DNA from: Pegea sp. RAD2-039
Lineage: Eukaryota; Chordata; Thaliacea; Salpida; Salpidae
Assembly: GCA_034620365.1 (NCBI GenBank)
Contig: JAQGEQ010000305.1
Span: 901,745-965,744, forward strand
Length of the DNA: 64,000 nucleotides
Reading direction: 5' to 3'
Shown here: piece after piece, positions 3,974 through 51,004 of the stretch
Numbering within the stretch: position 1 is the stretch's first letter
Layout of the letters: each line of letters opens with the position of its first letter
Notes under the pieces: generated by a model
Seen by the model: only the letters and a program-made list of their open reading frames with translations
Database searches by the model: none
What the model was told of the DNA's origin: nothing
Program-made: the position numbers and the translations under genes

Positions 3974-6292
3974 ATGCTAGCCGATTTTCATAAACAAATC
4001 TCTTTGCCGCAGCATCCATCTCTCAGAACTTCTACCTCGAAAAGTTTCGACAAAGAGCCTAAAAATGCTTACAAATATAATGACAGAAGATACTCTCTGG
4101 TTAAAATGCAGTTAAAGTGAGATACAAATTTTAAAATTATTTTTACTAATTTATTGTTGCAGAAATTCGATTTTAAACTTTCAAATTAAAGTTGCACTTT
4201 ATTACAATAAAATTAAATAATTCTTTTTATATAGAAAAAATACTGAAGGTTATAACAAGTACAAGGACTTTAAACATCACATTAACTGCGCACCTGAGCT
4301 AGGGTTGATTGAACTGAGCTCGACGCGGTGCTCAGCTATGAAAAAAGGATTTTCATTGCCTCCATATGCTACTGTTGACTATCGCCAACTTAGATGGCAA
4401 GTACAAATTTATTAAAGGATAAATATTGCTACTTATATTGACCAGCTGCAAAAACTTCTTGATTTTCTATTTGAACATTCAATTTATTTGTTAAAGTTGT
4501 TTAGACTTGTCAAAAATCTATTAATTTTTTGCACAAAATTCTTTTTTATTCATCTTTTTAAAATACTTGAACTTTTTGAAGTAAAATAGAAACTTTCAGA
4601 TGTAACACTTGTTATCTTATGTTAACTTGAAAAACTTCTAAAATTTCGGTTGGGCCTATTTTACATCTTGTTATGGATTTGAATAGAGAAATAAAAGTTA
4701 CTTTACCGCATATGTAAATTTAATATACTGATAATACTAATAATAATAATGATTTTTTCAGAGTAAATTAGTATTTGTTTTATGCGAAATCTATACTATA
4801 ATAACACTCTGTTAAAGAGTTATATTAGCCTCTGTAGTGTAGCATTATCACGCCCGCCAATCACGCAGAAGGGCCCAGGTTCGAGCCCAGGCGGGCACAT
4901 AATTGCGACAAGAAAAAGTTCATAAAAGTCCGGGTAAAAGAGCCTTATTAGTCTGGTAAATACCACCAACTTCTAAGAGACGCAAAACTCCAAATTTAAA
5001 GCTGTAGCTGGAACTTCATAGACATTTTGTCACTGTTATCAGTGTCGTTCTGGCAGCTTTTGTGACGCCAGCTGGGTGTAGCTGCATCAATCCGTCTATT
5101 ACGCTACATAACTTTGTTAGCGTGGAGAGTGTAATCGTGGACAGCAACTGAGTCTCCATAATTTCTACCATGGCTTACAGTATAGCCGTTTTCGGCCGAA
5201 GCAGACCATACTACTAATAACTGCATATGGAAAATCTACCGCCTGATGATTAAAGGTGCTTAGATGGTCCAAAACTGCGCATAGCAAAACAACTGATCTT
5301 TTAGTAGATAGAATGTTTATCTGATTTGTCCAAGATGTTCTTATTGGTAGTTGTTATAATTTCATTACAAATTAAAACAACTCTAACTTAAACTTTTCTA
5401 GTTGACTTTAAATTTTATGCTTTTATCTCCAGTAAGGGTGCAACTGCTAAAGAACGGCATCAAGCATATCAAAAGACTTTCGAAGCAGTAACCAACAAGA
5501 AACTTCAGCCTGTTGTTACTTTTCAAAACTACGATTGTATAAACGAAATTAAACCGGTTGAAAGTAAATCAGAAGAAAATGTGAAATCAACTTCTAAACT
5601 AACTGAAAGTCAACCCGTAAGTTTTAAAGAAGACCGTTTATAACTAAACTTATTCTATCCATAATTTGAAATACTTCTTCTTATGACTTTGTTAATTTGT
5701 AAAAAGGAGCTTTTTCTAGTCTAAAACTTGCAAAATTTTTGTTATCATGATTGCTTTTTATCTTGCATAAGATGGTCCAACAGAAAGGCAACGGAAATGA
5801 TGTTATGCTGCCATCTAAAGAAGCTTGCTCAAAGCTTCCAGAAGAAAATAAAGAGAAAAACTCAGCAGTGAGTTGTTATTTCGAATTTCTATCCGATATT
5901 TTGTGGCAACTTTAAATTTGAAGTAAAAAGTTTGTAGAGTAGAAACTTTTTAAACGATTGTTGTCAAAACGAATTTAGATTACAAATTAACATAACTTAT
6001 TTAAATGTAGAAAAAAAGAACTTTTGAAAAGGAGCTTAAGTTACCTCCAATACCACTGTGGGAGTCTTTACATTACAACGGAAACAGGTTTTTTTTGTTG
6101 CTACATCACTAAAAAATCTAAAATCTGAACTTTTTAATTTCTAGGGTTGCTGATAAGCTAGGAGTAAGCTTTAAAACAATCGCTAACAAACGCTTTCACG
6201 CAGTTTTTTATGATAAAGTCCCTGATCTTCGGGATCATATGCATGTATCAAAGCGTCCAGGACCTATTAGATACAGTGGAGTATTTGGTTAA
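3974..6292 (+). CDS. Uncharacterised six-exon gene, 269 aa
   Basis: Exons 3974-4116, 4235-4400, 5437-5616, 5772-5867, 6011-6087 and 6145-6292 join with GT-AG junctions and matching phases to give 810 nt ending in TAA. I do not recognise a named family. The product is basic, with Tyr/Arg/Pro-rich patches and no signal peptide or membrane segment. It ends with IPLWESLHYNGNR, then PDLRDHMH and KRPGPIRYSGVFG. Short conserved Pro/Arg/Tyr patches like these remind me of small ciliary or sperm-tail microtubule-associated proteins, but that is only an impression. Intron 2 (about 1 kb, against 30-300 nt for the others) has been enlarged by a SINE. The exon 3 acceptor is taken at ..CCAGTAAG|GGT because the AG four bases upstream would give an immediate stop. 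Confidence 0.72.
4828..5100 (+). mobile_element. tRNA-Val-derived SINE, copy 1 (inside an intron)
   Basis: The first ~70 bases resemble metazoan tRNA-Val: CTGTAGTGTAGC (A box), ATCACGCCCGCC, and the B box GGTTCGAGCCC. The 5' and 3' acceptor strands no longer pair, so this is not a working tRNA. The following unique body (AAAACTCCAAATTTAAA, CAGTGTCGTTCTGGCA, TTGTGACGCCAG) recurs at 8080-8275. It lies in intron 2 of the 269-aa gene in the sense direction. Confidence 0.8.
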
Positions 6293-7119
6293 TTTGATTA
6301 AACAGCTGAATTTTAAACTGAATGTATTTTACGCTGTTTAAAATTAAAATAAAAGGTCTTAAACATGAATTAGTCAAATTTATTCAGATCTTATTTAAGA
6401 AGAGTAGATTTTTCATTCCAATATTAGAACAAATCAATAATGGTATGATTACTGGTCGTTAATTTCTATGACAATTCAATGATAGAACAAATCAATAAAC
6501 TTGTTAAGTTCTGCTTATAACAATTATATCGTAAATAAATACTAACAAAATACATTTTCTGTTTTTACTTAATTAAATGCAGTTCTGTTATACGTCAAGT
6601 CAAATACTGTTTCTTGAACCAAATAGTCGTATTTGTATTGCAACAATATGAAAACAATCGTTATAAAACTTTTTCATTTTGTTTTTATCTTTGAGATTTA
6701 TCAAAGTATCTTTTGATGATAGCAACATAATACTTTTATTACATTTTGTTTTGCCACATCATGAAATATAATAACAATCTTCAGAAAAGTGTTCTGCAAA
6801 TGTTGTCTTTGCAATTATGTTTAAGCTCTTCATCTTCTTCTACAGAGCTCTTAGAGGAAGAACTTTTAATTATGATTTAAATAGCAACGAGTTTTTATAT
6901 AAAAGTATCCAAGTACTTTAATATATATATAAATTATAATATAAACTAGATTATTATCATTAAATTTTTAAGTAAACTGAATATAAACAAAATATTCATA
7001 AATGTTTTTGCAGTCCAAGTAAGCTCTTGTGTTTTTTTAACTATAAAAATCCTAAAAGTAATTTATTCTGAGGATATTGCAAAACCTCTGGTTCCTTTAA
7101 CTTGTTCTGCTAAATGGGG
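6293..7119. other. Intergenic AT-rich sequence
   Basis: Downstream of the 269-aa gene. A near-copy of one minisatellite unit (TTACTGGTCGTTAATTT) occurs near 6449. Nothing else is recognised. Confidence 0.5.
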
Positions 7120-7262
7120 TTTGATGGTATGCTTACTGGTTGTTAACTGGGGCTTGATGGTTGTTTACTGGTCATTAATTGGGGTTTGATGGTTGTTTAC
7201 TGGTCGTTAATTGGGGTTTGATGTGGTATGTTTATTGTTCGTGAATTAGGGTTTGGTAGTAC
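7120..7262 (+). repeat. Minisatellite, ~32-33 bp unit, about four copies
   Basis: Tandem units of the form TTTACTGGTCGTTAATTGGG followed by GTTTGATGGTTG are repeated with few changes, then decay into a diverged last copy (TTTATTGTTCGTGAATTAGG). No coding role is apparent. Confidence 0.8.
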
Positions 7263-7444
7263 GTTTACTAGTTCTCGACGATTGGTTGTTTTGTTCTTTT
7301 AAAACGTCAATTAATATTGGAAACCAAAAAATGGAAATTACTGAACGAAAAGGAAAAGAAACAAGTAAGTATTAAGGACGAAGAATAGTAAAGACTGATA
7401 CAAGAGTGAGAAGTTTGAAGCAGATGAAGTAATCACTTATGTGT

Positions 7445-7660
7445 TCATCTAAAACGATTGATAATTTTTTCGCAAAACTTCTTTATTTACAATATCGAAG
7501 GCTTTGGTGAGGTCTAAGAAAATGATGTAAGGACCCTTGTTTTGATTACATTTTCTTGGATTTGTTTAAGAACAAATACCATATCAGTAGTACTTCTAAT
7601 CTTTCTGAATCTGCACTGGGTTTCAGAAAGAACAGACTTAGCTATAGAAGACACAATCTT
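7445..7660 (-). mobile_element. Decayed LINE reverse transcriptase fragment
   Basis: The minus strand reads ETQCRFRKIRSTTDMVF, then in a shifted frame FLDLTKAFDIVNKEVLRK. These are the QxGFRxxRST..DM.F and FxDLxKAFD..N blocks of a non-LTR reverse transcriptase. One frameshift with stops separates them, so it is inactive. It is of the same general type as the fragment at 2760-3551 but in the opposite orientation and not a close copy. Confidence 0.75.
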
Positions 7661-8079
7661 ATAAAGTGAAATTCTTGAAAAAACGAAGAGTTATGCTTCT
7701 GTGGTTGAAGCAGTTAAATTTATCCCCATTATTTTTGTAAAAACTGATTGATGATTACTCTGTCATGAAAGTTATCATGTATCTTCCCACTCTTTCAATG
7801 AAATATTAGCTGCTTATGTAAGAATGTTTGCAGTATTTCACCTTTATTTTCACCTAATCTCTTTTAGGGAGTTACAAATAGCACGACTTAACAAATTGTG
7901 ATGTTGTGAGCATCAACAATATCAAAAAAATTAAACTTTCGAAGGTTAAGTGCATTTTTTAAACTCAATCAACAGTTAAAATTACAATTTTCGATGTATT
8001 TAGTATGTTCAAAGTCTTGAAACATCATAGATGAGCTCCTATTGAAACGGAACAGTGTTCCTTTCTTGTTTCTTCGCAG

Positions 8080-8275
8080 GTGCCAAGGACCAAGAGCTTT
8101 TGCGACGGGAAAAGTCCACAAGAAACCCGAGTCGAAGGGCCTTAGTAGTCTGATAAATGACAACATTTCTAAGAAACGCAAAACTCCGAATTTAAATCCG
8201 GAGTTGGAACAACTACGGTTGTTTGTCACTCAGTGTCGTTCTGGCATCTCCTGTGACACCAGTCGGGCGTTCTTT
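8080..8275 (+). mobile_element. SINE body, copy 2 (head lost)
   Basis: Aligns along its length with the body of the SINE at about 4902-5090. Shared runs include CGCAAAACTCC, AGTGTCGTTCTGGCA and TGTGAC.CCAG. The tRNA-like head is absent, so this is 5'-truncated. The two short open frames here (7969-8229 minus, 8042-8281 plus) are products of the repeat and not genes. Confidence 0.75.
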
Positions 8276-8819
8276 TTTTGATAAAGATAAGTTTATTACG
8301 ATAAGATTACTTCAACTATGTTAGTGGTTTTGTAAGAACAGCAGACTTCCTGTGTTAAGGCATGACTCGAAATGACTGAAGTAGGATTATCGCTAGCCAA
8401 GTTAAACTTTTCCATAAATGTTGAATTTGGGTTATTTTGATAAAATTTACTAAAATTAAAGTCCCCCACAATATATTACTCTAGAAACACAACGCTCTTT
8501 AAAGCCTTTAATAAGGCCTTAATAGTAAACCTGTCATTAATTTTAGAAGGTGGTAGATACACAAAAATGAAAAAATTTGGACTTTGAATAATGGAAATCG
8601 AAAGTGATAATCTAAAATCTTGGAAAATTAATGTCATTGATCTGAATTCTGGAGATCTTATGTGCCAGCAATGTTTTGTAAATTACACAAACATCGCCGC
8701 CACATCAAAATCAAACTTAAATCTTTCATTTAAGATCATTCAAAGACCAAAATAAATTCTGGAAAGTTTAAATATAAATTCTTATTTTAAAAATTATCCA
8801 CAATTTAATTGACCTTCAG

Positions 8820-11771: not shown

Positions 11772-14700
11772 ATGAAAAGAAGGTAAATAAATATCATTGT
11801 TCTTGAAATTGAAATTGAAATATTTTTATATTTGTTTTTTCATCTCATAAAACTTATGGTTTATTTTGATTTAAAAATTATTTTTATAACCACAAAGATA
11901 ACTACAAAATCTTAGAAAATTAGATCTTATAACTTTTGATAAAATCTCATGATATTAGCTAAAAGTTAATTTCTTTCTCAGCAGCTTATTTACTTTTGAT
12001 CTCTAAGAAACTATTCTTAAAACATCTAAAGTTATTTTTTAATCATCTGACTTCAGATCTTCATCACCTTACGGTCAAAGATCTCGATGTCCTCTTCCTT
12101 CAGCATCTCGTTACCATCCAAGAAACTCTCAGCCATCATATCAAAACAAAATTGTTGGTAATTTAGCAAATTTTCTGACTGAATGTAACCTCTTTAACTT
12201 GTAGGATCGATCTACTTGGCGTCGGTCACATGATTCTTCTTCAAGACAATCTGATTATTATTTGAGTAATTCGAAATATAAGGTCCTTATCACTTAGATG
12301 TTGCTTAAACTCAACAAATCCTATTTTTTAGGGTTCATTGCCAAGAAGTTATCAAGGAAGATATTCAAATGAAAGACGATCTTATAATCGTTTGAAAAGA
12401 GTTCATCCTGAATCAGGCAAGTTTTTGTGTAACAAAATCCTCTAATATTATCAAAACTAACCATCAAAGTGACTTTGTGATAAGAATTAAACATTTTATG
12501 AAAACTGATTAATTAACGAACAAAGAAAGACTTAATACAAACAAATCTTCGTTTGGTGGTCGAAGGTGTTGTTACAAATATACAACTTCTGTTTTGTTAA
12601 TTACTATTTTCTGGTTACATCACCTTACAGCTAACTCATTACTTCCGTTCTGTTAACTTTTGTATGATTCTGTTTTCAATTTAATATCACTTCGTTGATT
12701 TTCAACGATTTGATTGGTTAACAGAAGCTATTGTGTTTATTCCTTTCAACATAATTGTGTAGCTTACCACAATGTATCTACAGAATCTATATCTTCAAGA
12801 CACTGTAGAAGCCCTTCTGTTAAGAGAAGTCGTAAAGACCGGCACTCACTTCGTTATACTCGAAGTAGAAACCGGAGCTGTAGAACCGGAAGCTGTAGAA
12901 GTCGAAGCTGTAGAAGCCGAAGCTGTAGAAGCCGAAGCTGTAGAAGCCGAAGCTGTAGAAGCCGAAGCTGTAGAAGTCGAAGCTGTAGAAGCCGAAGCTG
13001 TAGAAGCCGAAGCTGTAGAAGCCGAAGTAGATCTTCTAGAACCCGAAGTAGATCTTCTAGAACCCGAAGTAGATCTTCTAGAACCCGAAGTAGATCTTCT
13101 AGAACCCGAAGTAGATCTTCTAGAACCCGAAGTTCTAGAAGTAGAAGTTCTAGAAGTATAAGCTCTATATCAAGCTGTGGTGATGACTACAAATCCATTA
13201 AACTTGAAGATAGTTCGTCAGTGCATAGTTTATCTTCAATATCAGGTTTGAACTTTTTGACAATTTGAAAGTTTTTCAATTTCATCTTTCTGCAGATTCA
13301 TGTTCAGACGATCAACAAGTAAATAAATTCTTATACAAATTTCATCAGTCGATTATTTTTCTATTGAAAAAAACTTTCTAATGTTTTCAGAATTTAGATA
13401 TTCTACGAAATAATGCTTTGAACACGATGAAAGACTTCAAGTTTAATCTTGGTAGTATGATGTTAACAATTTGATTTTATAAAAACTCTTTGACTTGTTC
13501 AGAGTTAGAAGACGGAGAAATAATTGATATCCCAAAAAAGAAGACTAGTGTGTTCGATGACAAAACCGAAAGTTTAAATGGGGTTTACTGTCTTTCTCAT
13601 TTAAAGGTGGATGGGATAAAGAGCAACATTATTGGGGAAAGTTTAGCTCCTGCTTACAACAACTTATTGACTAAAAATATGGAACATTATTTCGTTACAA
13701 AGAAAAAGCATTCCTGTTGTGAAATGGAAAAACTATTATCAAAGACGAAGATAGATTGTAAAAATCTACCCCAATCTACCCAAGGGTCATCTGGATATCC
13801 TTCATTACTGACTTGTCTAAAAGAGGAACCGCAAGCTGATGGAGAGGAAGATGAGTCTGTGATGCTGCAGGAGAAATTGGATGATCTTGGTATAGGTATT
13901 TCGTCAAGAATTAAAAGTTATAAGAAATGCAAGAAGTAAGAAATAGTTGACTATCATTAAATTGCTTCTATCAAATTTTCTTTTAAAGAGCAATGCAAAT
14001 TTACTACAATAGAGCACTAATACACAAGTTGGAAATTATAAAGATGACCAAAATCATGGAAATAACTCAAGGAAGATTAGAAATAGTTGAGAGTAATAAG
14101 AAAGTAAACCACCTGCACCTCATCACCCACTATTTGTAACCAGTTATTTTTCATCTTGCAGAAAACTTCTGGTGCAACAACAACCATCTCAAAACCATCT
14201 TCTAGTGCACCAACAACCATTTCAAAACCATCTTCTAGTGCAACAAAAGCCATCACTTCTGGTGCAACAACAACCATCTCAAAACCATCTTCTGGTGCAA
14301 CAACAACCATCTCAAAACCATCTTCTAGTGCAACAACAACCATATCAAAACCATCTTCTGGTGCAACAAAAGCCATCACTTCTGGTGCAACAACAACCAG
14401 CTCAAAACCATCTTCTGGTGCAACAACAACCATCTCAAAACCATCTTCTAGTGCAAAGACAACCATCTCAGAACCATCTTTTATTGCAACAAAAGCCATC
14501 ACTTCTGGTGCACCAACAACCATCTCAAAACCATCTTCTAGTGCAACAAAAGCCATCACTTCTGGTGCAACAACAACCAGCTCAAAACCATCTTCTGGTG
14601 CAACAACAACCAGCTCAAAACCATCTTCTGGTGCAACAACAACCAGCTCAAAACCATCTTCTGGTGCAACAACAACCATCTCAAAACCATCTTCTAGTGC

Positions 14701-17700
14701 AAAGACAACCATCTCAGAACCATCTTTTAGTGCAACAAAAGCCATCACTTCTGGTGCAACAACAACCATATCAAAACCATCTTTTAGTGCAACAACAACC
14801 ATCTCAAAACCATCTACTAGTGCAACAACTATCTCAGAACCATCTTCTGGTGCAACAAAAGCCACCACTTCTTTGCAACCATCTTCTAGTGCAACAAAAA
14901 CCATCTCAAAACCATCTTCTAGTGCACCAACAACCATCTCAGAACCATATTCTAGTGCACCAACAACCATCTCAAAACCATCTTCTAGTGCAACAACAAC
15001 CATCTTAAAACCATATTCTAGTGCACCAACGACCATCTCAAAACCATCTTCTAGTGCAACAACAACCATCTTAAAACCATCTTCTAGTGCACCAACAACC
15101 ATCTCAAAACCATCTTCTAGTGCAACAAAAACCATCTCAAAACCATCTTCTAGTGCACCAAAAACCAATACTTCTGCTGCACCAAAAGCCACCACTTCTG
15201 GTGCAACAAAAGCCACCTCTTCTAGTGCAACAAAAACCACATCAAAACCATCTTCTAGTGCAACAAAAGCCACCACTACTGGTGCAATTACAACCATCTC
15301 AAAACCATCTGCTGGTGCAATAAAAACCATCTCAAAATCATCTACTAGTGCACCAACAATCATCTCAAAACCACCTTCTAGTGCACCAACAACCATCTCA
15401 AAACCATCTTCTGGTGCAACAAAAACCATCTCAAGACCATCTTCTGGTGCACCAAAAGCCACCACCTCTGGTGCAACAAAAACCATCTCAAAACCATCTT
15501 CTAGTGCAACAACAACCATCTCAAAACCATCTTCTGGTGCAACAACAACCATCTCAAAACCATCTTCTGGTGCAACAAAAACCATCTCAAAATCATCTAC
15601 TAGTGCACCAAGAACCATCTCAAAACCATCTTCTGGTGCAACAACAACCATCTCAAAACCATCTTCTGGTGCAACTAAAACCATCTCAAAACCATCTTCT
15701 GGTGCAACAAAAACCATCTCAAAACCATCTTCTAGTGCAACAACCATCTCAAAACCATCTTCTAGTGCATCAACAACCATCTCAAAACCATCTTCTGGTG
15801 CAACAAAAACCATCTCAAAATCATCTACTAGTGCACCAAGAACCATCTCAAAACCATCTTCTGGTGCAACAACAACCATCTCAAAACCATCTTCTGGTGC
15901 AACTAAAACCATCTCAAAACCATCTTCTGGTGCAACAAAAACCATCTCAAAACCATCTTCTAGTGCAACAACCATCTCAAAACCATCTTCTAGTGCACCA
16001 ACAACCATCTCAAAACCATCTTCTAGTGCACCAAAAGCCACCACTTCTGGTGCAACAACAACCATATCAAAACCATCTTGTGGTGCACCAAAAACCATAT
16101 CAAAACCATCTTCTAGTGCGCCAAAAGCCACCACTTCTGGTGCAACAACAACCATATCAAAACCATCTTGTGGTGCACCAAAAACCATCTCAAAACCATC
16201 TTCTGGTGCACCAAAAGCCACCACTTCTGGTGCAACAACAACCAGCTCAAAACCATCTTGTGGTGCACCAAAAACCATCTCTAGCCGACATGTCAGCAGA
16301 TATAGAAAAGTTAATTCTAAAAATGATAATTACGAAGATAGAAAAAAGAAAACGGAGACACCGATTGTGACCGGTATGACGTCATCAAGTATTTTTATTG
16401 TGTCTTCATCAATAAATTTTACAGAAATTGTTGAAAAGACTCAAAAAGTTACAAAATCTTCAATTTCACTCCAAAAAGATCTTCTTGATTCACTGATCAA
16501 GCATATAAGAAGTAGTTTAAGTCATAAATATCTTCCATATTCACAAGATCATCTTCAAGTTGCTGAAATCTTTTATGGCAATCCAAGTATGTTTTCAAAG
16601 ATATCTTTTCTAAATTTCACAAACTTCTTCTTTTCAGTTTTCCTCTCTAATTGGAAACTGAGTTACTCCGAAATTACATCTGAGACTCACCAAAGTGATT
16701 CATATCCAACAGAAATCTCTTATACGAGTCCTCTTCTCAGCTACAGATCCTATAGACTTAATTCAAATATTGAAAGATCAAATCTGGATGTCGATTCACC
16801 ATTCTTCAACAACTTCTTACATCCACACAAGATCATTTGCTCTTATGACCTCACTGGAATATGTTCTAATCCAACTTGTAAATATCAGCATATAAGTAAC
16901 TCACTTCATGCATCACCGAGTCAAATCTATCTCGATCTTCTCGCATACTGTCCCACAATGCTCAAAACATCCTCTGATGTCCCTGTCCGACCCAACGATC
17001 CTATGGATGTAAAATTAGCGGTCAGATGACCCATATTACTCGGACACTTGTCCCCAACTACTTTTATCATAGGCAGCGGAAGCAACAGTCAAACGATTGG
17101 TAAAAATGGACCCGTCTGACGTCAGCAACGTCTCGAAGATCTGCCGGAAGTTGATTCAACTCATCAATCGCGCTTTAAACTCGAAGGTATATTTCTGTCA
17201 CTTGATGGCGCTTTCATCATCTACTTCTAGAGCGTTCTCATGACACCACGTGACACAGGATACCTGCCACAACTCGCTGATGACGTCACTACAACGAATG
17301 AAGTCACTGCCGACGATGACGTCACAGAAGTTGGTCCTTTTGTCAACTTCAACCATTTGACAAGTCAGCTGCATCGCGTTAGTGACGTCATTACTCATTT
17401 GTATCATGCAGCTAATCGCTTACAAGTCGATGACGTCACTACTGAGCGCTATCTGTCACGTTACTATGACAACAGCGATCTAATCGACGAAAATGATGAC
17501 GCAACAATGACGAAAGCACTTGAGGCGCAATTACATCAGCACCCTGACAACGTATCACTACGTTTCAAACTTTGCCGCTTGTATCAAAGCAACAACCAAA
17601 TCAGGTGACCTTTTGACCCTTGTATCTGGCAACCGGTGGTGACGCCATCACTACTACGTCATCAGACAAGTTTTGAATCTGCTGTGTTTGGGAATCGAAT

Positions 17701-44247: not shown

Positions 44248-46882
44248 TCAATTAGAGATGCAGAGACTTGCATTTGTTCCTCCGAATCCGAACGAATTAC
44301 TCAACGCGATTCTTCTGCAAATCCACAAAATCTTGTCACTGCTCTTTACCACCATCTAGCGACTCACTTTTTGCTCTTCCACTGCTGAGTAGTGTTAGGA
44401 ACAAAATTGAAAGGGATCAGTTCATCATCACACTTATCCAAATTAAGTGTTGGTGGCAAGTAACCATGGTAACAAGCAAGAATTGTAAAGATCGCCTCCA
44501 CCGCGCCAGCAGCTCCTGAAATCAAAGATTATTATCCGGAAAAGGTTTTTAGGAAGATCACCTAAAAGATGTCCGATAGCTCCTTTGGTAGAGGATACAG
44601 CAAGATCTTCACGAGCTTCTCCAAAGAGCGCACCAATCGCTTGTGTTTCAGCAGCGTCACCCAGTGGCGTGGAAGTAGCGTGTGCGTTGATGTACGTGAC
44701 GTCATCAGTCGAGAAGTTGGCATCTTGAAGAGCTGACTGCATACATGCAAACGCCCCTGCACCTATATAGACATCTGGTCAAAGAGGACCACAAAATATG
44801 GGACATCCGACCATCTGGACAAGGAGCTGTGATATGGTTGGCATCGGTGGATAACCCGTAACCATGGATACGCGCGTAAACTTTCGCATTTCGTCGAAGA
44901 GCGTGTTGCTCTTCCTCTAGAACAATCACTCCTGCTCCTTCTCCCATCACAAAACCATCTCTAATGAACAGATTAGATGCGATAGTTGCTAGTAGCAACC
45001 AACCGCTGTGGATGAAAAGGTCTCGAAGCACTTTTTGCATCATCGTTGAACTTGGTACTCAAAGCTTTTGCTCTACAGAAACCTGCCAGTCCATATTTAT
45101 TCAAATTAGCTTCTGTGCCACCGGCAACCATGACGTCACAATCGCCATGCGATATGAAGCGACACGCATCACCAATTGCATGTGCTCCTGCACCAAAAGA
45201 CTTTATGAGGACTGATATTGGATTTGTGTCCCACTAACCCGTCGTACAAGCCGTTGATACACTGTGGCTTGGTCCTTTCAATTTATACTTGATTGAAATG
45301 TGACCATTAGACATGTTATTAAGGATAGAAGGGATAAAAAAAGGAGAAACTCTTCTAAGATTTTGATCATCTAATAGATTGATAGTTTCACTAATCAGTT
45401 GGAGATCTGGAAGACCGGTTCCTATGGCAACTCCTAAAAGAAGTCTATTGCATCTTTATTTTATTAAATTTTAAAGGTTTTGAAAGGTCAACATCTTAAG
45501 GTCAAACCACAAAGAAATAATTTAGAAAATTAATATTAAGTTGTTTTAGAATAAATTAAAGAATTGTTAAATGTGAGATGTCAATAACTAGAAAATGGAT
45601 TGAGTGTTTTTAAGTAGTTTTACCATAAAGTAATTACCTTAATTTTAGGTTAAATATATTATCTTGTCAAAAAAGATTAGAAAGACAAATTACTATAGAG
45701 GTTTTGAATTGAATTTTCTTGAAGAAATAATCTAATTTCAGTAAAATTTAACTTAAATTTTATTTTTATAGTTTCAATAATAAATTTTAAATCAATGTTT
45801 AAAAAAACTATTTTCTAATATTGGAAGAAAATATTTCATAACAAAGCAGTTTTAATAAAAGAAACTAATTTTAGCATATTTTTCTGTGGAACTTAATATT
45901 AAAAGAACAATTGTTATAAAAACTTGATAAAGATATAAATAAATAAAATAAAAGTAATTAGAAAATTTATTAAACAATCAAAGCTAACCTAATAATCTCT
46001 ATTACAACATGTTTATCGCTTATCAATTTTAATTTCAAAGTTCATCAACAACTTTTAATGTTAACTTCACAAATATTAAACACAATAAATCTACTAAATA
46101 GTTAAACAATAATTTATAAGCTGTTATCTGCAGCCATTTGTTAAATAAATTCATGAACCTGTTCTCTTTTGATCTCTTGAGTTTGATGGGAGCCAATTTG
46201 AATCTTTTAATGCTTCATCCGCAGCAAGAAGTGCAAAGTTTGAAGCCAAGGACACTGATCTTGAAGGTTTACCATGAAACTCATGATCTTTATCACCTTA
46301 AAATTTTATAAGTATAAATCAAAAATAAAATATATATTTAAACAAATTAATAACACGAAAATAAGTTGAAATATTCAAATTTACCTTTAGGTACAATAGC
46401 AGCTACTGTACAAGGTAATTCACAATCTTTAAAAATAAGATTTTGTACTCCACAACAACCAGCTAATAACTTTTTCCAGACATAATTAGAACCACAACCC
46501 AAAGGAGTTACCAATCCAATACCTGAATTGAATAAGAATTTGTTAATTATACCAATATCAAGCTATAATTGAAACTATTCATGTGATATCAGCAACAAAA
46601 ATTCAATAAAACAGATTTGATACTAGTGAAAGTTTTTTAGAAGAATAAATATTTTAATAAATGTTGCTCTTACATAAACTCAATTTCATTTAATCTAGTA
46701 AAGTTGCATAGAAGTAGAGTTATTTAAAGAAATGTATATCAAGGATTTATGTATTTTTATAAATTTAGCTCTATATTTGAAAAATGTGACCAACCTGTAA
46801 CCACAACCTTTCTAGACGAGCTTCGAGTAAAATGCAACAGATTTATTTTGCTAAAATTAAATATATTTCTACTGTTATTCAT
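44248..46882 (-). CDS. OXSM: Mitochondrial 3-oxoacyl-ACP synthase (KAS II type), 435 aa
   Basis: Nine exons: 46882-46795, 46522-46385, 46296-46159, 45433-45239, 45187-45004, 44960-44812, 44762-44562, 44515-44368, 44314-44248; phases close. The first ~25 residues are basic and hydroxylated without acids (mitochondrial presequence), then [15 protein letters not shown]. The elongating condensing enzyme triad is complete: Cys in [11 protein letters not shown] (about 184), His in [12 protein letters not shown] (about 325) and His in [11 protein letters not shown] (about 362), with the conserved Lys357. The C-terminus has [14 protein letters not shown]. It extends acyl-ACP in mitochondrial fatty acid synthesis, feeding lipoate production. 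Human OXSM is 459 aa. Two introns have GTTGGT donors and one GTTCAT, so boundaries there are less certain. Confidence 0.92.
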
Positions 46883-47855
46883 TGGAAAACTTGTTTTATT
46901 AGATCAGTCAATAAGAATTTAAATTTATAAATACAAACAACAAAATTGATTAGTGTGATGTAAAGCTACCCTATTTTGAGCTTTTTTATTTAAGGCCTAT
47001 AGATAATCTATAAAAAAGAAAAACAATTTCTATTTACATTTATATTGATTTCAAAGTAAAAAAAACGCTTCATAAAAAATATTTTTTAATCAAGCATACA
47101 AAATAATCGATACTATAAAGCATACATTTCGAAAAGCATTTTTATTCGTGTACGCCTCCATTGGTTTTAAAATAATTTGACAATTTTCTGTTCTTACCAA
47201 CATAAGCATAAATAAATTTCTCAGCTTCATTTAGAGTTTCAAATAAATAAAATATTGAAAAATGTAAACAGTACTGTTCTGGTAGATGCTTTATTCCGTT
47301 TATTAAAGGCAAGTTTAAAATACCTTTGACCAGAAAGCACAAAACAGTTAAAATATATTTTCATGGACTTAACAATGTTACTGAGAAGTTCACATATCAA
47401 GGTTAATAGCTTCGTGTTTTATATAGAAAACTACAGGTTCAATTATGAGGCTGCAACAAAAGTATTTCACCTCCAAAGAAAATATTCAATTATTTGAACT
47501 TTTGCGTTGCTACTTTTAACTAATCCTCAATTTCAAACTGAACAACCTTCACTGAACTAAATTCTTTGACAAAAAACAAAAAAGTTTGAAACAAACATCT
47601 CTTTTTATTACATTCAGTTGAATTCAAAGAAATCAAACAATGAAGTAAAATTCCTTTTGAAATATTTTACAAGAAGACCTGATGGTGAGAGATTAAAAAG
47701 AGATTCATCCATGATCAGATAGTGGAGAAAATATTTTCTGGGAATTCTAGCAGATGACTCTCAAGGAGTCAACAAGAAGGTAAAAAGGGAGAAATAAAGT
47801 CTGTGCTTTTTAAATGTATTTTTCGTATTTATGAAATCAGCGACTCCAAAAACAT
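46883..47855. other. Intergenic AT-rich sequence
   Basis: Between the OXSM start and the dsRBD-DZF gene stop. The 66-codon minus-strand open frame at 47142-47342 resembles no family and is probably chance. Confidence 0.5.
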
Positions 47856-50800
47856 CTATGATACAACTTGATCGTTTCCTTGGTTACTGAGATCACCAAA
47901 TACTAGGTCAGGTTTACAGAAGACGAACTTTCGAAGCGCGATCTACAAACAAGGGTGATAACCACGACACCTAGTGGTCAACTTTCACTAACCTGAGCAG
48001 CGAAAGTCAAATCTTCGCGACTTTGAAGCGTCATGGAGCTGATGACATCAACTTCTGATCGCTCACAAGGGTCAATAATTCCGTTGCTCTCTAATCACCA
48101 TGGAAACCAATCAAAATCACGCTGTAGTAACACTTTTTAAACAGTTACCTGGCAACAAGATTCCCGAGCTAATAGCTTCAAAAACTCGCTGAATAGAAAG
48201 TCCAGCTGTGAGCGTTGCTGGGGAGCTCTTCAAGATTCGCGTTGTCAACAGCTCGAGCGCCTGTGAGTGAAAGATTGTAACCTAGCAACGAAGGAAAGCT
48301 CGCGTACCCAGTCGTCAAGCGCAGCCCATTCATTCGAGGTCTTCGCGAGACTTTTAAGCAATCGAATCGTGATGACACAATAAGGTGTCGAACCAGCGTA
48401 GCACTAGAAGGTCAAAGAGTTGATGATCAGAGCAAATTTGATGATTTGGAGGAAGTTCAAACCTCAAACCATTTGTTGCGTCGTAATTGTGCAAGTACTT
48501 GTAGACAGTCCTTTGTATTTAACATATCAGAAGGTGGTCTACCATTGTTGGAAACCAGTGTCGACATATCAGGATCTAAAGATGTGGATGTAGATATTTG
48601 TTCATCTAATTATCATTTACCATCTTCAAATATTCGCATCACTGGAGATGTGAAGAGGATTGTGATATCAACTGGATGAGTGATTGGTGTCTTAATAGAT
48701 GAAGATTCGCGAATCTCCGAAGAGTTGAAGATCACTTTGATGAAATCTTCATCTTCACCAAGCAAAAGCTCATAATTATTACCCTGAGATATCGTTGTAA
48801 GAAGATGCTGAGGTGGTTAGTGGCTGCTTACAGGTAAGTATTTGGACAAAAGCGCATAAACATGCGACACAAGCGATTTAGTTGGATACGACGTGCTTAG
48901 AAGAGCAAGTTCAACTTGGAGGTCGTTTTTTAAAACAGTTCCCTTGGCAACGGCTCCAGTTCGAATGACTCCTCGGAGATAGTTGCTAAAAAATTGAATT
49001 TGAAATTTGTTTCAAAGTTTTATGCCGATAGTAAAGAAGAGAAATTTGTTTATAAAAAAGAGGATTAAAAAATATTGATTAAAAATCAGTAAAACGCTAA
49101 TGTCAACTTCAACTGACTTAAGTTTGAGCTTGGTGCTCATCTTTTTGACATCTTCAGCGACTCTCTTCAAACAAACTTCAGTTCGATCTAATGCTTCCTG
49201 CATCGAGTCAATCTCATCATCACTTGGATAGATCTCACGGTGTTTACGGAAGACATACTGATCGTTAAAAGTTGGAAGTCCAATATTCACTTTCTCATTC
49301 TGCTGAGTAGATTACAAAGAATTAGAATCGAATCTGACATCAAACAAACTTTATCAGAAGATGATTCTGATCTTTAGTTTCGTGGAAGATCAGATAAAGT
49401 CATAGGAATCAACTGATCTACTTACAGATTTCTTCTCTTTGCTGGGACTTGTATTAGCTTCAACCAAACGAAAATGATAAAGTTGTGCCACAGCGAGACG
49501 AGCGCAACCTTGAGTGGCGACTTTCTTGCTAGAAGCGCTATAAGTCGATTTAATATTTTTGATTCCAAAAGATTCAGATTCCACATTAAAGTCCAATGAA
49601 GCAGTGAATGACTGAAAGATAAAAAAGTCTCAGATAATTCCCATCTTATAAGATCTTAAAAGTTCTTCTTCTAATACATCTTTAGAAAGTTGGGATCAGT
49701 AAAGAATATTTAAAGAGGAAATTTACTTTTCCATCAGCAGTCATTTCTTCACTATATTGATATTCATTTGATATGTTACTTGAATTAAAGAATTGATGCA
49801 AACATTGCCGGCTATTCTCTAAAGTCCAATTTCCATACTCATCAACATCAATCTAAACAACAAATCGTAGATGATGTACATCAATTGATTCTCCACCAAC
49901 CTCTTCTTCCGCCTTTCTCTTCTTAGCAGACTTCGAGCTTTGAGGTCTTTCGATGATCTCCGGTTCATAGTAAAGAGCAGGAGCCATGTGGTCGGTAATC
50001 GAGTACTTGTAGTCGATAGCTAAAGGAGGGTCACCAGCTCTTTCAATTAAACCCTCACTGAAGAGTGTTCTGATCATAGAAAGAGCACACATTGAAGTAG
50101 CCTGCTTCTTGTTGGTTCCTTGTTCTTTTGATGAAAACTCTGTTAAAAGTAGATGATGATTTAATGCAAATCAATTGTCACTAAGATGTAGCTTTTTATT
50201 AGTATTTACAATAACATCCATTCATAAAAAGTCAACAAACCTTTTTGAATAGAATAAATTTGTAGTTTTAAACTGCAGATGAATATTCGAGCGTGTTCTG
50301 GACCCACAGTATAATGCTCATAGTTGGGTAGGGAGTATTGACTTTGGCAGAGTCGGTTCAACCGCTGTCGTGAGTTGGTCAGGTCCCAGCCTCCATGTTT
50401 AAAAATCTTCAAGACATGACGTCATCATTGTTCATATGACGTCATTAAAAATTACCTCTTCCGGACTTTCTTTAATATTTTTAATTATTTTGCTTCCCAT
50501 GGTCGGAATTTCACCAATAACAGGAGCTGTCTGTGAATAAATGAGCAGAATTAGAAGATATTGATGAAACGGAGAAACTTACAGGTCGCTGTGGTAACTC
50601 AGAAGAATACATTTGATTAGTTTTGACCAAATGATCAACATAATTCCAAGCAGCTCTGGTCTGGGCATCTTTTTTATTACTAGCTTCGACATATTCTTCA
50701 TGGTCCAGGTTGTTGACATAAAGCTGTAGAATCACTTTTACAAATCAAGACTCAAGATGGACATGAAACTTACTCTGCAAGTAAAGGTCACCTCAGGCTG

Positions 50801-51004
50801 GATACCTTTTTGTCTTATGTCATACTCAGGTTTCATACCTCTCTGTCCACACCAAGCATAAAAAAAAGATTTTATCTCAGTCGCTTTGACAGGTCTTGTA
50901 ATCCTCGGCTAGAATAGAAATAAATTAATATTTTTTAGTCATTATTATAATTTTAAAATTACCTTTTTTTCGGCCTTTTTCTTGGCCGGGTCATTTGCCG
51001 CCAT
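47856..51004 (-). CDS. Protein with three DHX9-like dsRBDs and a DZF domain, 712 aa
   Basis: Sixteen exons: 51004-50963, 50908-50774, 50723-50583, 50530-50456, 50406-50241, 50139-49901, 49852-49727, 49611-49426, 49299-49118, 48985-48832, 48807-48621, 48575-48463, 48403-48308, 48260-48149, 48090-47993, 47942-47856; phases close. dsRBD1 (about 24-95) has IKSFFYAWCGQRGMKPEYDI and ASNKKDAQTRAAWNYVDHLV, very like the first dsRBD of DHX9. dsRBD2 (about 135-218) opens GGWDLTNSRQRLNRL and dsRBD3 (about 272-360) opens GNWTLENSRQCLHQFF, both resembling DHX9's second dsRBD (GNWTLENAKARLNQ). A basic KKRK patch separates them. From about 372 on is a DZF domain (ILF2/ILF3/ZFR type): YPSDDEIDSMQEALDRTEVC, LRGVIRTGAVAKGTVLKNDL, LELLTTRIL, RVFEAISSGILLPG, DPCERSEVDVIS. 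No helicase motifs follow. A nuclear dsRNA-binding and NF45/NF90-like dimerisation role is inferred. The dsRBD-before-DZF order differs from ILF3, where DZF comes first. Confidence 0.85.

Follow-up and report, generated by a model that had tools for sequence, protein, structure and literature searches.

NF90 and NF45 carry DZF domains that are pseudoenzymes and pair with each other, and the NF90-NF45 pair raises affinity for double-stranded RNA (dsRNA) more than tenfold, as described in the available part of one study (PMC11952958). In the portion of text available from another, NF90 and SPNR are vertebrate-specific proteins and likely the product of a shuffle of dsRNA-binding domains (dsRBDs) of ADAR2 with the domain of ZFR (PMC4770229), and the accessible passages of both sources relate the origin of NF90, as a possible answer, to Alu-like repeats (PMC4770229, PMC11952958). 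Here we describe a gene in which dsRBDs of DHX9 type stand ahead of a DZF domain. The gene lies in a stretch of 64,000 nucleotides from Pegea sp. RAD2-039 (contig JAQGEQ010000305.1, positions 901,745 to 965,744), which we call the window. The best explanation, to which we assign a probability of roughly 0.6, is that the window holds a real NF90-like dsRNA-binding gene that arose by fusion of DHX9-type dsRBDs with a ZFR-type DZF domain and was then duplicated.

The window gene and its domains

Rebuilt from the raw sequence, the gene has 16 coding exons and an intact frame, closed by a stop where exon 16 ends (Table 1). All 15 introns (45-132 bases) have GT-AG ends and consistent phases, in agreement with the phase-consistent 16-exon model of an earlier note on this DNA. 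That note had started exon 9 at 49299, which is a valid in-frame acceptor, but the rebuilt model uses 49302, the other AG of a CAGCAG pair by virtue of which both choices keep the frame. A home-made gene finder also recovered the exons, with exon 12 shorter; because it was trained on the window gene itself, its agreement counts as weak support. We regard the window gene and its architecture as very likely real.

Table 1. Features of the window gene, in window positions, and its paralogues elsewhere in the genome
Feature	Position	Strand	Evidence
Whole gene, dsRBD1-dsRBD2-dsRBD3-DZF, 705 aa	47856..51004	-	Splice and frame check, Pfam, PDB sequences
dsRBD1, residues 24-105, exons 2-3, DHX9 dsRBD1 type	50586..50881	-	PDB sequence search
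dsRBD2, residues 134-219, exons 5-6, DHX9/MLE dsRBD2 type	50042..50400	-	PDB sequence search
dsRBD3, residues about 270-363, exons 7-8, DHX9 dsRBD2 type	49447..49843	-	PDB sequence search
DZF, residues about 383-691, exons 9-16, ILF3/ZFR class	47901..49266	-	Pfam, PDB sequences
Tandem acceptor CAGCAG at exon 9, two in-frame choices	49299..49302	-	Sequence
Paralogue C12:76k			
Paralogue C31, near contig end			
Paralogue C260:195k			
Paralogue at C12 start (gene cut by contig end)			

The domain landmarks reported earlier were all present in the rebuilt protein, with FYAWCGQR, GGWDLTNSR, and GNWTLENSR as in DHX9-like dsRBDs, and YPSDDEID..M and DPCE answering to the DZF pattern that runs from YP(S/T)xxEID..M to DPCE. 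In searches of PDB sequences, each dsRBD found its best match in DHX9 or MLE, in line with the DHX9 type proposed in the earlier note: dsRBD1 matched DHX9 dsRBD1 (66.1 bits, E 2.5e-17) and MLE (45.2 bits), dsRBD2 matched MLE (73.9 bits, E 8.2e-20), DHX9 dsRBD2 (64.4 bits), and, weakly, two plant dsRBD proteins (E 0.0043 and 0.47), and dsRBD3 matched DHX9 dsRBD2 (58.4 bits, E 7.8e-15). Ordinary ILF3 variation, the competing identity for these domains, was checked in the same searches, in which none of the three dsRBDs taken singly matched a chain of ILF3, Staufen, ADAR, or TARBP at E values up to 1. Pfam placed dsrm, DZF_N (residues 385-576, 45.1 bits), and DZF_C (residues 584-687, 76.2 bits) above cut-off. 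The DZF domain is full, as claimed; two dsrm stretches passed alone, and dsRBD3 alone scored 16.0 bits, under the cut-off of 23. Among PDB sequences the DZF region matched ILF3 at 157.5 bits and ILF2 at 50.7 bits, which assigns it to the ILF3/ZFR class. No helicase family and no zinc-finger family was found in the protein by Pfam at E values up to 1.

At the residue level, a KK pair is present in all three dsRBDs (NKKDA in dsRBD1, NKKQA in dsRBD2, and SKKVA in dsRBD3). The helix-1 lysine is kept in dsRBD1 (EIKSF), and arginine occupies the place of the MLE helix-1 lysine (K171) in dsRBD2 and dsRBD3. In MLE dsRBD1, according to the available part of the source, K53E and K54E abolish dsRNA binding and K4E strongly weakens it (PMC6486548). 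As to the catalytic acidic residues of active nucleotidyltransferases (OAS/cGAS type), in an alignment of the DZF domain with ILF3 only, GDLDLEL reads NDLQVEL; ILF3 is treated as a pseudoenzyme in the accessible text of PMC11952958.

Among the genes predicted nearby are one with a WW domain and one with PB1 and PDZ domains, and the next gene downstream (about 44250-46900, minus strand) appears by eye to be ketoacyl synthase-like. At 14166-16281 of the window, a 33-base unit is repeated in tandem about 67 times; this array is strongly skewed in GC and has a partly open repetitive frame. Rfam gave no match in the window at gathering scores, and a search of the whole assembly for COX1 gave no hit.

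Relatives in the genome and the origin of the fusion

A dsrm profile search of the genome assembly (105.7 Mb in 387 contigs, smaller than any known vertebrate genome) returned 15 places, four of them relatives of the window gene. In the three full paralogues (C12:76k, C31, and C260), dsRBD1, dsRBD2, a short lysine-rich linker, and DZF follow in that order; their frames are open, and the aligned splice places keep AG and GT. All three have no third dsRBD, and among the copies seen only the window gene has dsRBD3. The window gene guided the marking of the paralogue exons, in models that leave out the start exon; for C12:76k this was done by hand, and the gene finder on its own gave most of the hand-marked exon ends. 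C12:76k scored above the Pfam cut-offs for dsrm, DZF_N, and DZF_C, and for 11 of its 13 introns both position and phase are those of the window gene, while the remaining two flank the place of the missing third dsRBD. Conserved order in the paralogues and conserved introns in C12:76k argue that the joining of dsRBDs and DZF is not a chance pairing of neighbours, and the structure kept in the paralogues also speaks against exons 1-8 and 9-16 being transcribed separately. C12:76k does not keep the residue at the place of MLE K171 in its dsRBD2, and its GPEH loop is lost. Between the window gene and C12:76k, Ka/Ks was 0.37 (ps 0.61, pn 0.35, Fisher p 2.8e-19) with a Ks of 1.27, near saturation; judged from these substitution counts, their divergence is one of purifying selection.

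C12:76k and C31 are 99.5% alike in the coding part. The beginning of C12 and the end of C31 agree at 99.8% identity across 4.7 kb reaching to the ends of both contigs and, given this agreement, may be one locus. Within C12, a stretch of 5.8 kb or more is also present as an inverted copy, 98.9% identical (C12 start, L032 1-5843, and C12:71.5k, L033 1-5842), and this copy together with the overlap of the C12 start and C31 end (L034 4302-9000) may reflect recent duplication, adjoining contigs, or an assembly seam.

Profile searches of the genome for DZF_N (4 places) and DZF_C (8 places) had all their hits in C8, C35, C246, and the window gene (on C12); because they missed the copies of the window gene, these counts of DZF genes are lower bounds. 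The gene at C8 is ILF2 (393 bits), and the ILF2 homologue that had been suggested as a possible partner does exist in this genome. Gene-finder predictions provided the models of C35 and C246. C35 has a predicted glutamine-rich start, a DHX9-type dsRBD1 (52.6 bits; Pfam dsrm 23.7 bits, cut-off 23), one C2H2 finger (zf-met 22.0 bits, cut-off 21.2), and a DZF domain that matches ILF3 at 182-195 bits versus 55-56 bits for ILF2. On these predicted domains C35 is a ZFR-like gene, the most ZFR-like of the DZF genes found. A motif scan of 9.9 kb found no second zinc finger in C35; the dsRBD1 exon (L014 7702-7959, minus strand) precedes the zinc finger and is itself preceded by a long tandem repeat. 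C246 combines a DZF domain with a weak dsRBD1 (18.5 bits, under the Pfam cut-off) that has lost the KK pair.

Six of the 15 dsrm places (the four copies, the window gene, and C35) have a dsRBD before a DZF domain. Of the other nine, predictions put two in ADAR (Pfam A_deamin) and one in a dsRBD-kinase gene; as judged by eye, two more lie in a TARBP-like gene, one in a DGCR8-like gene, and one in an MRPL44-like gene, and two have no assignment. No NF90 was seen among them: when the 9.9-kb loci of these nine places were searched by tblastn, the window protein matched no DZF domain; such searches go exon by exon, so absence of an NF90 gene is not proven by them. The predicted dsRBD-kinase protein, on C32 (L039 about 6095-8336, plus strand), has a dsRBD at 20.2 bits (cut-off 23) and a protein kinase domain at 70.6 bits, in the order found in PKR.

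Trees were made from 11 DZF rows and from 17 dsRBD rows, with outside references consisting of PDB sequences of DHX9, MLE, ILF2, and ILF3 and, in the DZF tree, one human ZFR row. A further dsRBD tree of 13 rows left out C246, the C260 copy, and two ADAR rows. In the DZF tree, ILF2 stood apart (100/100), the window family formed one clade (100/100), and C35 joined this family with moderate support (89/92), a placement that carries a long-branch warning. The dsRBD phylogeny, which the earlier note had put forward as a check, placed the dsRBDs with the DHX9/MLE types. In the 17-row tree the dsRBD1s of the window gene, its copies, C35, and C246 formed one group (92/92) apart from dsRBD1 of DHX9 and MLE, and without C246 the group had 91/91 in the 13-row tree, these supports being moderate values from short domains and few references. 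This grouping suggests that the fusion is old and was duplicated afterwards, and we infer from the sequences a single origin of the fusion.

The third dsRBD grouped with dsRBD2 of DHX9 and MLE (97/97 and 92/98), not with the neighbouring dsRBD2. An origin of dsRBD3 by local duplication of dsRBD2 was rejected, as a tree that forces the two into one group is worse by 10.6 log units (AU p 0.036, with groups chosen after the tree). Holding all three DZF-family dsRBD2s together was not rejected (p 0.080, with groups likewise chosen after the tree).

Domain shuffling, which the earlier note had proposed as the source of a protein with three dsRBDs and a DZF domain, stands, but the fusion is not confined to the form with three dsRBDs. 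Since paralogues have two, and dsRBD1 is present in C35 and weakly in C246, the fusion looks older and broader. In a different reading, dsRBD-DZF is an old animal state of ZFR/NF90-class proteins, which vertebrates and flies would have lost, and did not arise in this lineage. This reading is favoured by the presence of dsRBD1 in 5/5 full non-ILF2 DZF genes found other than the window gene (C35, C246, C12:76k, C31, and C260, with C246 under the Pfam cut-off), among them the most ZFR-like one. Human ZFR, by contrast, is not known to have a dsRBD. In addition, the accessible part of PMC4770229 has fly Zn72D without a dsRBD and derives the dsRBDs of NF90 from ADAR2. We consider an old animal state unlikely, although it is the strongest competitor of a fusion of DHX9-type dsRBDs with a ZFR-type DZF domain followed by duplication.

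Divergence of the copies and weaker readings

Ka/Ks values between the copies were 0.83 (C12:76k versus C260), 0.92 (C31 versus C260), and 2.1 (C12:76k versus C31, from nine changes). Against the C260 copy, nonsynonymous and synonymous rates thus show no difference, which is a point against the preferred reading. For C12:76k and C260, the coding part differs at 66/1734 bases (3.8%) and the introns at 41/1690 bases (2.4%; Fisher p 0.024 for this one pair of copies). Their frame has no stop and no indel, whereas the introns have three indels, and when the changes were placed at random, no stop arose in the frame in 2.5% of 5000 trials. Faster change in the coding part than in introns, as well as the three other full copies and the one that a contig end cuts, would fit an antiviral factor or innate dsRNA sensor that evolves fast, in a family multiplying under pressure of viral dsRNA; a lineage-specific dsRNA sensor was also considered in the earlier note. 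Several results count against this idea. First, in the same single pair, p was 0.054 for nonsynonymous changes versus introns, 0.54 for nonsynonymous versus synonymous changes, and 0.52 for the DZF domain alone. Second, the window gene is under purifying selection relative to its copies. Third, Pfam found no signalling domain in the window protein. A sensor of this kind thus seems distinctly improbable, more so than an old animal state.

Two further readings are set aside because of the paralogues. That two neighbouring genes, one for a short protein with DHX9-like dsRBDs and one for a DZF protein, were misjoined in the model is a real risk in a compact genome, as the gene finder ran the window gene on into the next one on a longer stretch, but is very hard to credit when the intron between exons 8 and 9 (49426/49302) is 123 bases with normal donor and acceptor, both halves keep one open frame and the same order in three full paralogues, and C35 also has dsRBD1 before DZF. 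We give equally little credence to a functionless, truncated DHX9 that lost its helicase and reads by chance into a DZF gene: genome searches (HA2_C 10 places, OB_NTP_bind 12 places, Walker-A DNA pattern 0) brought out no recognisable DHX9 helicase, which would fit this reading, but these searches also missed other helicases close to DHX9, for which reason we do not claim its absence, and the low Ka/Ks against C12:76k and the open frames of the three full copies speak for function. The ten HA2_C places and two OB_NTP_bind-only places (5 to 7 kb each) appear by eye to be other DEAH helicases, and tblastn with the window protein and a copy found no dsRBD at them.

Predicted function and comparison with known systems

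Under the preferred reading of fusion and duplication, DHX9-type dsRBDs would have been joined ahead of a ZFR-type DZF domain in an ancestor, and duplication of the fused gene would have given the window gene and its close two-dsRBD relatives, as well as, probably, the ZFR-like gene that bears a dsRBD. An NF90-like mechanism is likely. The DZF domain, being of the NF90/ZFR class, would be expected to pair with the organism's ILF2, and the N-terminal dsRBDs would be expected to hold dsRNA such as inverted repeats, hairpin precursors, and intronic duplexes, so that the protein may bind dsRNA to regulate splicing, editing, or the processing of small RNAs. This pairing, the RNA binding, and the cellular role are predictions from sequence. 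A more far-reaching scenario, which we hold only tentatively, is that one old fusion founded all non-ILF2 DZF genes here, including the ZFR-like gene and C246 with its decaying dsRBD1; NF90-like proteins would then have evolved at least twice, from different donors and in opposite order, the window gene would have acquired one more dsRBD2 of DHX9 type, which a second capture may have supplied, and the recent copies would be changing fast in a conflict over dsRNA.

Among the literature matches listed, none reports DHX9-type dsRBDs before a DZF domain. Most subscription papers lay outside this search, as did animal protein databases, and because of the latter predicted proteins of dsRBD-DZF shape may already stand in public annotation. 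Searches of the viral contig and genome contig collections with the window protein found no relative.

Each of the closest known systems shares part of this design. ILF2, which is not known to have a dsRBD, shares the DZF domain with the window protein, and its DZF falls in the separate clade of our tree. Like the window protein, ZFR and Zn72D have nucleic-acid-binding domains ahead of a C-terminal DZF domain, and the window DZF groups with that of the ZFR-like gene C35 on long branches, but the window protein has dsRBDs where ZFR has zinc fingers. With DHX9 and MLE, the window protein has in common a dsRBD1 followed by a dsRBD2, each with its counterpart as best PDB match; it differs in having no helicase core, a second dsRBD2-like domain, and a DZF domain instead. 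NF90/ILF3 and SPNR/STRBP resemble it in that they combine an ILF3/ZFR-class DZF domain with dsRBDs in one protein, and ILF2 is present here as well. The order and the donors are different, however: NF90 has its DZF domain first and two ADAR2-like dsRBDs after, in the available part of the source (PMC4770229), whereas the window protein has three DHX9-type dsRBDs first, its paralogues have two first, and its DZF domain comes last with little after it. On these comparisons the window gene looks like a parallel build of the NF90 type in which dsRBDs of DHX9 stand first. Together with the sister genes that keep the fusion, this suggests that proteins like NF90 may have been built more than once. 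If a separate fusion in reverse order and from DHX9 donors did occur in this 106 Mb genome, then dsRBDs on an ILF2-binding platform would be a repeated solution, the question would arise whether ZFR once bound dsRNA through a dsRBD, and why a DZF heterodimer needs dsRBDs would become testable on two separate builds.
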